Positions 5,621-12,533 of a stretch of 64,000 bases of DNA are shown piece after piece. Source of the stretch: Pirellulales bacterium. GTDB lineage: Bacteria > Planctomycetota > Planctomycetia > Pirellulales > JALHPA01. The position numbers were made by a program, and so were the translations under genes. The notes under the pieces are model-generated. The model made no database searches, was not told the DNA's origin, and saw nothing but the letters and a program-made list of their open reading frames with translations. Within the stretch, counting starts at the first letter, position 1. Each line of letters opens with the position of its first letter. The stretch is taken from positions 124,001 through 188,000 of the forward strand of contig JANRLT010000065.1 in assembly GCA_033762255.1 (NCBI GenBank), written 5' to 3'.

Positions 5621-5800
5621 GTAGCGACTTTGAGTCGCCAGTGGCCCGTAGTGGCGACTTTTAGTCGCCAAAGCGTTATTACCGGGTTAGCTCAGCCGCT
5701 TTCGTTTGGTTATTTTCTTCCGCATCGCGACCATTCCACGCACTTCACGGCGAGGGAACCTCGCCGCTACGTAGTGGCGACTTTCAGTCGCCAAAGCGTT
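5621..5800. repeat. left arm of tandem REP hairpin array
   Basis: Two units of a repeat with a period of about 123 bp. The complete unit has a hairpin CGGCGAGGGAACCTCGCCG (5748-5766), an 8-bp palindromic spacer CTACGTAG (5767-5774) and a second hairpin TGGCGACTTTCAGTCGCCA (5775-5793). An earlier copy of the second hairpin is at 5652-5670 and a degenerate half (gcgactttgagtcgc) at 5624-5638. Between hairpins runs a conserved linker containing gttagctcag and ttcgtttggttattttcttc. The same units recur right of the neighbouring transposase gene, so the gene sits within the array. Confidence 0.9.
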
Positions 5801-5830
5801 TCGCTGCGTAACTTTTACCAGATTATCATT

Positions 5831-6523
5831 TCACTCTCTAAAGGATGTATTGGCAACTTGATAAAGGCTAGTCTTATGAATGTATTCATTTTGTCGTAAC
5901 TTTGCCTTCTTTGGGTTTTGCGCAATATAATTTTGAAAAGCGATCAATTGATCAATATCCCGCACAATATGATCATAACTTTCTTTTTGCCAAAATTTTC
6001 CGGATTGCCCGAGGAAAGAGTTTGCGAATTTAGCCGTATGGGTTTTAATCGATTGCAACAACCTCTCTAATGCAACTCCCTCCATAGGCGTCATTAACGC
6101 GTGGACATGATTAGGCATGATCACATAATCACCTGTTAGAACTCTCTGATTCTGAAAATAGGTTAATGCATTTGCTACGCTTTTCGCAATTTCCGGCTGC
6201 CGCAGTGCGCACGAGCCATAATTCATGTCAAGTGAATCATTAATGAAGACACCCAGCATTCTTTCGAAAGCGCGTTTTTCGGCGGAGGATAAACGCGCGA
6301 ATCTATCTTTCCAAGAGGGATCCGTTGGATCGATTTTTCGGGCAAGCAGCCATGTCTCCCGTCGGCATTTTAATTCTTGTTGAAGTTTAAGAGGCAGAGC
6401 ATCTGCCAATCGAAATGTAACAAAATATGTGCATTTATCTTGACGCCAATGAGGTAATATCCCATGCCGATAAATAGTAACTTTTCCTGACTCATTAAAA
6501 CCATAAAATAGAATGGGAGTCAT
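5831..6523 (-). CDS. REP-associated tyrosine transposase (RAYT, Y1/HUH family)
   Basis: Single-strand-specific HUH endonuclease of the IS200/IS605-like TnpA_REP family, which in other bacteria is linked to the spread of REP palindromes. The HUH pair is H139-V-H141 in VIMPNHVHALM; the catalytic tyrosine is probably Y183 in FWQKESYDHIVRD, followed by the family pattern FQNYIAQNPKKAKL. Length is 230 residues, with no frameshift or internal stop, so it appears intact. Unlike an insertion sequence it lacks terminal inverted repeats of its own and is bounded on both sides by REP double hairpins (nearest at 5775-5793 and 6576-6594). Its DNA is noticeably more AT-rich than the flanking genes, consistent with acquisition. 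Start chosen at the first ATG; no other is better supported. Confidence 0.88.
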   Translation of the reverse strand: MTPILFYGFNESGKVTIYRHGILPHWRQDKCTYFVTFRLADALPLKLQQELKCRRETWLLARKIDPTDPSWKDRFARLSSAEKRAFERMLGVFINDSLDMNYGSCALRQPEIAKSVANALTYFQNQRVLTGDYVIMPNHVHALMTPMEGVALERLLQSIKTHTAKFANSFLGQSGKFWQKESYDHIVRDIDQLIAFQNYIAQNPKKAKLRQNEYIHKTSLYQVANTSFRE

Positions 6524-6575
6524 GTGAATACTCTTTGCTAAATCTGATGATTAATCTCGAGATTAAGGATTTCCC

Positions 6576-6835
6576 CGGCGAGGGAACCTCGCCGCTACGT
6601 AGTGGCGACTTTCAGTCGCCAAAGCTTTTTTTACCGAGTTAGCTCAGGCGCTTTCGTTTCGTTATTTTCTTCCACATCGCCACCCGTTTCCACACTTCAC
6701 GGCGAGGAAACCTCGCCGCTACGTAGTGGCGACTTTTAGTCGCCAAAGCGTTTTTACCGAGTTAGCTCAGACGCTTTCGTTTGGTTATTTTCTTCCGCAT
6801 TGCGACCATTTCCCCGCTCTCCGGCGACGGGATTC
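6576..6835. repeat. right arm of tandem REP hairpin array
   Basis: Two complete double-hairpin units 124 bp apart. Unit one: CGGCGAGGGAACCTCGCCG at 6576-6594, CTACGTAG at 6595-6602, TGGCGACTTTCAGTCGCCA at 6603-6621. Unit two: CGGCGAGGAAACCTCGCCG at 6700-6718, CTACGTAG at 6719-6726, TGGCGACTTTTAGTCGCCA at 6727-6745. Each is followed by the linker with gttagctcag and the ttattttcttcc segment; the last linker runs to a degenerate first hairpin (tccggcgacgggattcccttgc) ending beside the DUF1501 stop codon. Loop bases vary while stems are conserved, suggesting selection on structure. This fills the gap between the transposase and DUF1501 genes. Confidence 0.9.
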
Positions 6836-6840
6836 CCTTG

Positions 6841-8334
6841 CTACACAATCTCCTCAATCACTCGCGCCGGTTCCACGCCCGTCAGTTTGGCGTCTAGTCC
6901 CTGGAATTTAAAGCTCAGCTTGCGGTGGTCGATTCCCATCTGCCGCAAGAGCGTGGCATGCAGGTCCCGCACATGAATGGGTTGCACCGAACGATAGCCC
7001 AATTCGTCTGTTTCCCCAAACGAAACTCCCGGTTTGATCCCGCCCCCCGCCAGAAACACGCTAAACGCCAAGATGTGATGGTCCCGCCCATCCCCCTGCG
7101 CCATGGGCGTGCGGCCAAATTCGCCTCCCCATAGGATGAGGGTGTCTTCCAGCATTCCCCGCTGTTTCAGGTCGAGGATCAGCGCCGCCGTCGCCCGATC
7201 CACGTCTTGCGCGGCGTCCGTGTGGTTTCCTTTGATATTGCCATGCGCGTCCCAGGCCCGGTGATACACCTGGATCATCCGCACGCCCCGTTCGGCCATC
7301 CGCCGGGCCAACAGCACATTCGAGGCGAATGTGCCATCCCCCGGTTGCTTCACGCCATACAGATCCAAAATGTGTTTTGGCTCTTGCGTCATATCGGTCA
7401 GTTCCGGCACCGAGGCTTGCATTTTGAACGCCAGTTCATACTGCGCAATGCGCGTTTCGACCTCCGGGTCCAGGGTTTCCGCCGCCAGCAACCCATTGAG
7501 CCGCTGCACTTCCTCCACGACCTGCCGCTGCGTGCTTTGGCAAATGCCCGCCGGATTACCCAGGTAATGGACCGGCTCTCCTTTGGCTTGAAAGGAGATT
7601 CCCTGAAACTTGCTGGGTAAAAAGCCCGCCGACCATTGCCGCGCGCTAATCGGTTGCTGGCCCGATCGTCCCTGCGACGTCAGCACCACAAACCCCGGCA
7701 AATTGTCCGTCTCCGCCCCCAACCCATACAAGAGCCACGACCCCATACTGGGCCGCCCTTTGATGATCGAGCCGGAATTCATAAACGCGTGGGCGGTATC
7801 ATGATTGATCTGTTCGGTCCGCATTCCGCGCAAGATGCAAATATCGTCGGCGATTTTGCGGATTTCCGGAAAAATCTCGGCGATCATTTGCCCCGACTGT
7901 CCCGCGGGCGAAAACGGCGCAAAGCTCCCCCGTGCGACTAGCTTGGTGTTTTGCAGTTGGGCCAATTGCTGGCCCGCCGTGAAAGATTCGGGAAAGGGCT
8001 GACCGTCCAGTTTGTTTAACACGGGTTTGTGATCCAGGGTATCCACGTGCGAAGGTCCCCCGGCCATGTACAGGTGAATGATCCGCTTGGCCCGAATGGG
8101 AAAGTGCGGCTCGGTAATGACACCCATCCAGCGGCCTGCGGGAGCAGGGGCTGGCATGCTGGCGGCGTGATCAGTCATGGGAATGCTTTCTGTCGCGGGA
8201 TCCGCGCCCCGCGCTGTGCGTAATAACGCCGGATTCAGCAGGCAATTGAGCGCGGCCAACCCTAGCCCATAGGCCCCTTGGTGCAAAAAGGAGCGGCGCT
8301 GCAGTCGATGCACGATTTTATTCTCTGGTTTCAT
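6841..8334 (-). CDS. DUF1501 family secreted protein
   Basis: DUF1501 proteins are abundant in planctomycetes, belong to the alkaline-phosphatase/sulfatase-like fold and are usually exported; their reaction is not established. The N-terminus has a twin-arginine type signal (QRRSFLHQGAYGLGLAALNCLL). Typical motifs follow: IIHLYMAGGPSHVDTLDHKP, FPEIRKIADDICILRGMRT, LPGFVVLTSQG, MIQVYHRAWDAHGN, and near the end LILWGGEFGRTPMAQGDGRDH with GETDELGYRSV. Start placed at the ATG at 8332-8334 (MKPENK), 497 residues. In most planctomycetes the gene is paired with a DUF1549/DUF1553 cytochrome-type gene directly upstream; here the upstream neighbour is a PEP-CTERM gene behind a terminator, so this copy stands alone. 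Confidence 0.92.
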   Translation of the reverse strand: MKPENKIVHRLQRRSFLHQGAYGLGLAALNCLLNPALLRTARGADPATESIPMTDHAASMPAPAPAGRWMGVITEPHFPIRAKRIIHLYMAGGPSHVDTLDHKPVLNKLDGQPFPESFTAGQQLAQLQNTKLVARGSFAPFSPAGQSGQMIAEIFPEIRKIADDICILRGMRTEQINHDTAHAFMNSGSIIKGRPSMGSWLLYGLGAETDNLPGFVVLTSQGRSGQQPISARQWSAGFLPSKFQGISFQAKGEPVHYLGNPAGICQSTQRQVVEEVQRLNGLLAAETLDPEVETRIAQYELAFKMQASVPELTDMTQEPKHILDLYGVKQPGDGTFASNVLLARRMAERGVRMIQVYHRAWDAHGNIKGNHTDAAQDVDRATAALILDLKQRGMLEDTLILWGGEFGRTPMAQGDGRDHHILAFSVFLAGGGIKPGVSFGETDELGYRSVQPIHVRDLHATLLRQMGIDHRKLSFKFQGLDAKLTGVEPARVIEEIV

Positions 8335-12289: not shown

Positions 12290-12475
12290 TGAAATCCGCA
12301 TCGGCGACTACAAGTCGCCGCTACGCAGCGGCGAAGTTCCCTCGCCGATAAAAGCGAGAAAGAGTGGCGAGCCTACAATTGTTTGGGATTGAGTAAACCC
12401 TAACCAATGAAATCCGCGTCGGTGACTACAAGTCGCCGCTACGAACCCCCACGGCGACTAAAATTCACCGCTACG
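12290..12475. repeat. REP elements between uppS and cdsA
   Basis: At 12302-12348 lies a unit in the orientation opposite to the array near 5.7-6.8 kb: CGGCGACTACAAGTCGCCG, spacer CTACGCAG, then CGGCGAAGTTCCCTCGCCG. A second, degenerate copy starts at about 12409 (gaaatccgcgtcggtgactacaag...) and shares the same 9-bp lead-in gaaatccgc with the first; a third half-unit (cggcgactaaaattcaccg) follows at about 12452-12470. These are dispersed relatives of the RAYT-linked repeats. The rest of the 313-bp gap shows no gene. Confidence 0.8.
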
Positions 12476-12533
12476 TAATACTGGCCGCGACGGAAAATAA
12501 CTTGCCCCCTACGCCTCATAGGAGCGTCATTTC

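Follow-up and report, generated by a model that had tools for sequence, protein, structure and literature searches.

REPtrons are a known kind of element (PMC2817692, PMC3116915, PMC6006769, PMC8266576), but the origin and spread of REPs and REPINs remain an open question (PMC3116915, PMC8266576). In the E. coli REPtron (tnpA-REP/yafM/rayT with BIME-2), the RAYT gene stands between regular arrays in which two REP types alternate in orientation (PMC2817692, PMC6006769), and about one third of RAYTs are directly associated with BIME-2-type arrays (PMC2817692). The TnpA-REP of Stenotrophomonas maltophilia REPtron Sm cleaves, at C|T, a REP of 23 nt made up of a GTAG tag, a perfect 8-bp stem and a 3-nt loop (PMC8266576). 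REPINs, defined structurally as two inverted REPs with a spacer, form tandem clusters that adjoin each RAYT of Pseudomonas fluorescens SBW25 (PMC3116915). Opitutus terrae (Verrucomicrobia) contains GTAG-19 tail-to-tail dimers whose facing REPs lie 1-2 bp apart (PMC3733652).

The window described here (the whole stretch of DNA analysed, 64 kb from a Pirellulales bacterium, its gene content also pointing to a planctomycete) contains a locus that is very probably a REPtron: a single-copy RAYT with cognate GTAG REPs, arranged as head-to-tail REPIN-type units, one of which carries the transposase gene. It resembles the E. coli system in its regular arrays of two alternately oriented REP types on both sides of the gene and in its protein, for which E. 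coli TnpA-REP (4er8) is the best structural match. The E. coli REPs, however, are longer and have bulged stems, unlike the perfect hairpins of the window (8-bp stem, 3-nt loop; 8/3 hereafter); the window also differs in its zero-bp CTAC|GTAG junctions and in protein motifs that are 2.4-like rather than of subclass 2.2. The REP format of REPtron Sm is the same as that of the window, but its protein has the motifs of group 3/subclass 2.5, and tag-to-tag abutment is a feature of the window. Tandem units in SBW25 share the inverted REP pair but take in flanking DNA, whereas those of the window abut exactly at their tags. The facing GTAG REPs of O. terrae are likewise comparable, except that in the window they are 0 bp apart and in phase with the RAYT unit. 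Two traits are less usual among such systems: the gene forms one repeat of an array whose units abut exactly tag to tag, and direct 31-bp arrays occur genome-wide. The features of the locus and of the related repeats at 12.3 kb are:

5622 to 5640, plus strand: decayed REP (GTAGCGACTTTGAGTCGCC) at the left array edge, seen in the sequence
5648 to 5770, plus strand: REPIN-type unit A, GTAG-H2 (5648-5670), 77-bp spacer, H1-CTAC (5748-5770)
5771 to 6598, minus strand: RAYT-bearing unit, 828 bp, GTAG-H2 (5771-5793, plus), RAYT gene, H1-CTAC (6576-6598, minus)
5831 to 6523, minus strand: RAYT (TnpA-REP) gene, 693 bp with stop, 230 aa
6599 to 6722, plus strand: REPIN-type unit C, 124 bp
6723 to 6842, plus strand: REPIN-type unit D, with an intact left hairpin (6723-6745) and a decayed right one (about 6821-6842)
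5767 to 5774, 6595 to 6602 and 6719 to 6726, no strand: CTACGTAG inter-unit junction, seen in the sequence; putative C|T cut-and-join site
12302 to 12347, minus strand: tail-to-tail doublet in mirror orientation, partly decayed, joined at CTACGCAG
12420 to 12476, minus strand: two direct REPs at 32-bp spacing, of the genome-wide head-to-tail type

Between 5648 and 6745 stand seven perfect GTAG-footed 8/3 hairpins, six of which form three tail-to-tail pairs. In each pair, H1, a minus-strand REP (GTAGCGGCGAGGTTYCCTCGCCG), meets H2, a plus-strand REP (GTAGTGGCGACTTTYAGTCGCCA), and the two tags join as CTAC|GTAG with 0 bases between them. An earlier note had placed the second hairpins at 5652, 5775, 6603 and 6727, with spacings of 123, 828 and 124 bp, and had described perfect stems and two different hairpins set around a palindrome; these observations hold, the palindrome being CTACGTAG at 5767, 6595 and 6719. 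Its four doublets reduce to three complete tail-to-tail ones, because the leftmost unit is preceded by the decayed GTAGCGACTTTGAGTCGCC and the first hairpin of the rightmost (about 6821-6842) has decayed. The loops do vary between TTC and TTT, but the variability had been overstated because doublet partners were read on opposite strands: from GTAG onward, both partners have TTC or TTT. An eighth GTAG-tagged perfect 8/3 hairpin lies at 12302-12324, within the mirrored pair (12302-12347) that bears out the related units in opposite orientation reported at 12.3 kb. Such hairpins number 8 per 64 kb (7 within 1.1 kb) in the window against 0 in 100 mononucleotide-shuffled windows, and the doublet has a folding z of -6.5 relative to dinucleotide shuffles, which together rule out a chance origin. 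A CRISPR reading of the array was rejected as well. A DUF1501 gene with many paralogues adjoins the locus.

Delimited by their outer tags, the repeats form a head-to-tail series of GTAG-H2-spacer-H1-CTAC units of 123-124 bp that abut exactly at CTAC|GTAG. Units A, C and D satisfy the structural definition of a REPIN and are similar to one another, spacer included (A and C are 89% alike across 126 nt). One unit of this array holds the transposase gene in place of the spacer and has a hairpin-to-hairpin interior of 782 bp, compared with 77-78 bp in the others. Its H2 end is shared with them over 30-31 bp and its H1 end over 23 bp; the interiors are unrelated. Two marks of a REPtron are present: inverted GTAG REPs flank the gene at 5771-5793 (plus) and 6576-6598 (minus), and the cognate REPs are repeated in the host at no fewer than 132 places and absent from 29 relatives.

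Assignment of the protein as a RAYT rests on its motifs, fold and REP flanks. Its match to the REP_Tyr_transpos model (NCBIfam NF047646) is significant at E=6.5e-18 but, at 65 bits, falls under the curated cutoff of 80. Pfam Y1_Tnp scores barely above its gathering score, a sequence search of the PDB gave no relevant match, and PHROGs gave none. The HUH motif is N138-H-V-H141 (H139-V-H141), and the catalytic Y199 lies in Y199-I-A-Q-N-P, a YIxxNP context. In an alignment of 26 homologues, H139, H141, W178, D184, R188 and Y199 are invariant, with Q179 and H185 nearly so. W178, Q179, D184, H185 and R188 are the predicted GTAG-contact residues, spaced as their counterparts in E. coli TnpA-REP (W94, Q95, E100, H101 and R104; PMC6006769), and in both proteins the catalytic tyrosine follows 21 residues past the tryptophan. 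The AlphaFold model (pLDDT 90.5) finds its best PDB match in 4er8, the complex of E. coli TnpA-REP with REP hairpin DNA (E=3e-5, probability 1.00), at modest TM-scores of 0.39/0.53. TnpA-Y1 subclass 2.4 (Bertels group 4) is characterised by NH[IFV]H, WQ and YIxNNP motifs and long GTAG REPs (PMC6006769); by motif alone, NHVH and WQ agree with this subclass and YIAQNP nearly does. The protein is probably a domesticated transposase, an HUH single-strand nuclease predicted to recognise the hairpins of the array. An IS200/IS605 insertion sequence would be expected to show multiple near-identical transposase copies; the genome holds one intact RAYT, its other RAYT-like matches being fragments of 29-55% identity or distant proteins. 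The protein is closest to RAYTs from a Verrucomicrobiales MAG (53%) and from a single genome within the order (52%) (L044, L183), a similarity that may hint at horizontal transfer.

The distribution of the REP class in the 5.47-Mb assembly was mapped with a covariance model that combined the GTAG tag and the hairpin. This search gave 136 matches, 132 of which were kept, in 56 clusters; these are lower bounds because 150 of 6490 candidates were scored. The earlier note had held that an absence of further copies would argue against a RAYT-driven system; the hairpin class is in fact present in at least 132 copies. In 29 relatives, the same class returned no match at E<=0.001, compared with 85 at home. 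Across the genome the class recurs as a single GTAG hairpin, mostly in direct 31-bp arrays, with same-strand neighbours exactly 31 bp apart in 36 cases; such head-to-tail REP arrays (e.g. L024, L034, L043) have been reported as rare. Among copies chosen by their 5' half and TCGCC core, the apex pair is complementary in 40 of 45 (14.6 expected) and occurs as four pair types: REP stems are maintained by compensatory change. The loops, read in REP orientation, are TYY in 52 of 53 copies. A C|T stands at one fixed position in 7 of 13 spacers of the 31-bp arrays, and 16 of 52 tails have a C|T; its conservation in the spacers is suggestive only. Among the matches scored, the 21-bp tail-to-tail arrangement is restricted to the RAYT array and 12.3 kb, and neither the 124-bp unit nor its spacer has a second place in the assembly. 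The earlier proposal of a REPIN-like mobile unit with its transposase, amplified in tandem, is therefore sustained for the RAYT identity, the doublets and the tandem amplification, and falls short for mobility in its own genome, where dispersal of the 124-bp unit is not supported; because the unit is confined to the array locus, "REPIN-type" is used here in a structural sense.

Other repeats accompany this class. A second family of REPs, comprising GTAGCAGGCACSGTCCCSGTGCC and its variants, occupies 98 places. It borders remnants of RAYT genes on contigs C61 and C30, where a second RAYT has decayed to N-terminal and C-terminal fragments (L010 and L011, respectively on those contigs), each with second-family REP arrays. 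Further intergenic repeats adjoin REPs in the same genome, for example GCGCTCCGCTGCGCGTCGCGGCT and GTAGGAGGCGACTCCGTCGCC (L019, L021, L022, L030). The REP GTAGCAGGCACGGTCCCCGTGCC of this genome recurs identically at a locus in another family of the order (L109, genome G039), where it adjoins a RAYT.

Of 297 genomes in the order, 61 have RAYT homologues at E<=1e-25. Many of the loci inspected are bordered by GTAG hairpins to either side of the gene. They follow two layouts, with the gene either within a REPIN-type unit (the window, L107, L112, L191, L198 and L202) or flanked by two REPINs (L108, L109, L111, L113, L115, L123, L190, L193 and L196). The CTACGTAG junction recurs at five further RAYT loci in four genomes (L106, L107, L127, L110 and L188). 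At L110, L118 and L185, REP-like repeats lie within or overlap the reading frames of RAYTs, a feature already described for subclass 2.4.

One relative, G017, contains a dispersed equivalent of the unit. Its RAYT unit (L107) is 751 bp long with an ORF at 50-709, and is accompanied by REPINs of 187-189 bp that agree with it over its first 85-93 bp (92-94%) and over its last 66 bp (93-95%). The start codon and first 12-15 codons of the RAYT gene are therefore retained in these REPINs, as are its last 7 codons and the stop region. In the copies read in detail, the RAYT unit is represented by both of its ends, which identifies the REPINs as internal-deletion derivatives of that unit. The encoded start, MPFELFD, is similar to other RAYT starts, so the REPIN derives from the gene and not the reverse. 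Among the matches listed, 28 are full length, most of them abutting a neighbour exactly; the dispersed copies with RAYT gene ends (L107, 1224-2539, and L163-L182) form exactly abutting arrays. No earlier report of REPINs with both RAYT gene ends appeared in the literature searched, which covered subscription papers in part. The G017 REPINs support the old hypothesis that REPINs originated from a transposase-bearing element. In the window, unlike G017, the RAYT unit has its hairpin ends alone in common with its neighbours, and interior similarity between the array spacer and its own RAYT is no better than that of shuffles.

These comparisons suggest a mechanism. TnpA-REP cleaves at C|T near GTAG hairpins (PMC8266576), and every CTACGTAG junction presents C|T on both strands; the junction is therefore proposed as the cut-and-join point. 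The RAYT would bind the GTAG hairpin on single-stranded DNA and cut at C|T, and could both cut and join at the C|T inside CTACGTAG. Because the CTAC of one unit abuts the GTAG of the next, every unit end would be a cut site, and cuts at two successive junctions would thereby release exactly one unit. Rejoining would result in gain or loss of exactly one unit, with the spacer-bearing units acting as putative non-autonomous passengers of the RAYT. Extended to the order, the RAYT unit and the REPINs may form a working autonomous/non-autonomous pair, the REPINs arising by internal deletion and being multiplied in abutting arrays by the RAYT at CTAC|GTAG, and the array in the window may represent this system with a spacer that is older or has been replaced. 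This broader proposal is tentative.

A serious rival accepts the REPtron but attributes growth of the array to passive processes, slippage during replication or unequal RecA-dependent exchange among the 124-bp repeats, and not to the RAYT; it is a real, if minority, possibility. The likeness of units A, C and D, spacer included, is what slippage predicts, and the tandem REPIN clusters of P. fluorescens take in flanking DNA, which points to a second way in which clusters form (PMC3116915). Slippage also predicts arbitrary breakpoints, however, although an existing tandem would hold its period, and both here and at many G017 loci the unit limits fall exactly at the GTAG tags without flanking DNA. 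It is improbable that a pre-existing REPIN array received the RAYT gene, moving as a unit, into its spacer: the gene fills one repeat in phase with its neighbours, as such an insertion would, but no half-spacers flank it, the spacer being replaced entirely, and the spacer-bearing units of G017 are deletion products of a RAYT unit. That the hairpins serve neighbouring genes as terminators of transcription or as RNA-stability elements, linked incidentally to the RAYT, is very hard to credit: they are intergenic, some H2 hairpins have a T-run about 5 nt downstream and REPs can function at the RNA level (PMC3733652), but the GTAG feet are strict, the loops are of one strand sense, no T-run lies directly at any hairpin foot or past H1, and such hairpins are recurrently paired with RAYT genes in many genomes.

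Read as a REPtron, the locus has a layout that is testable, since a CTACGTAG site stands at every unit end. The related loci offer an unusually clear clue to the origin of hairpin repeats: with G017 REPINs that retain both ends of the transposase gene, the descent of REPINs from a transposase-bearing element becomes directly checkable.
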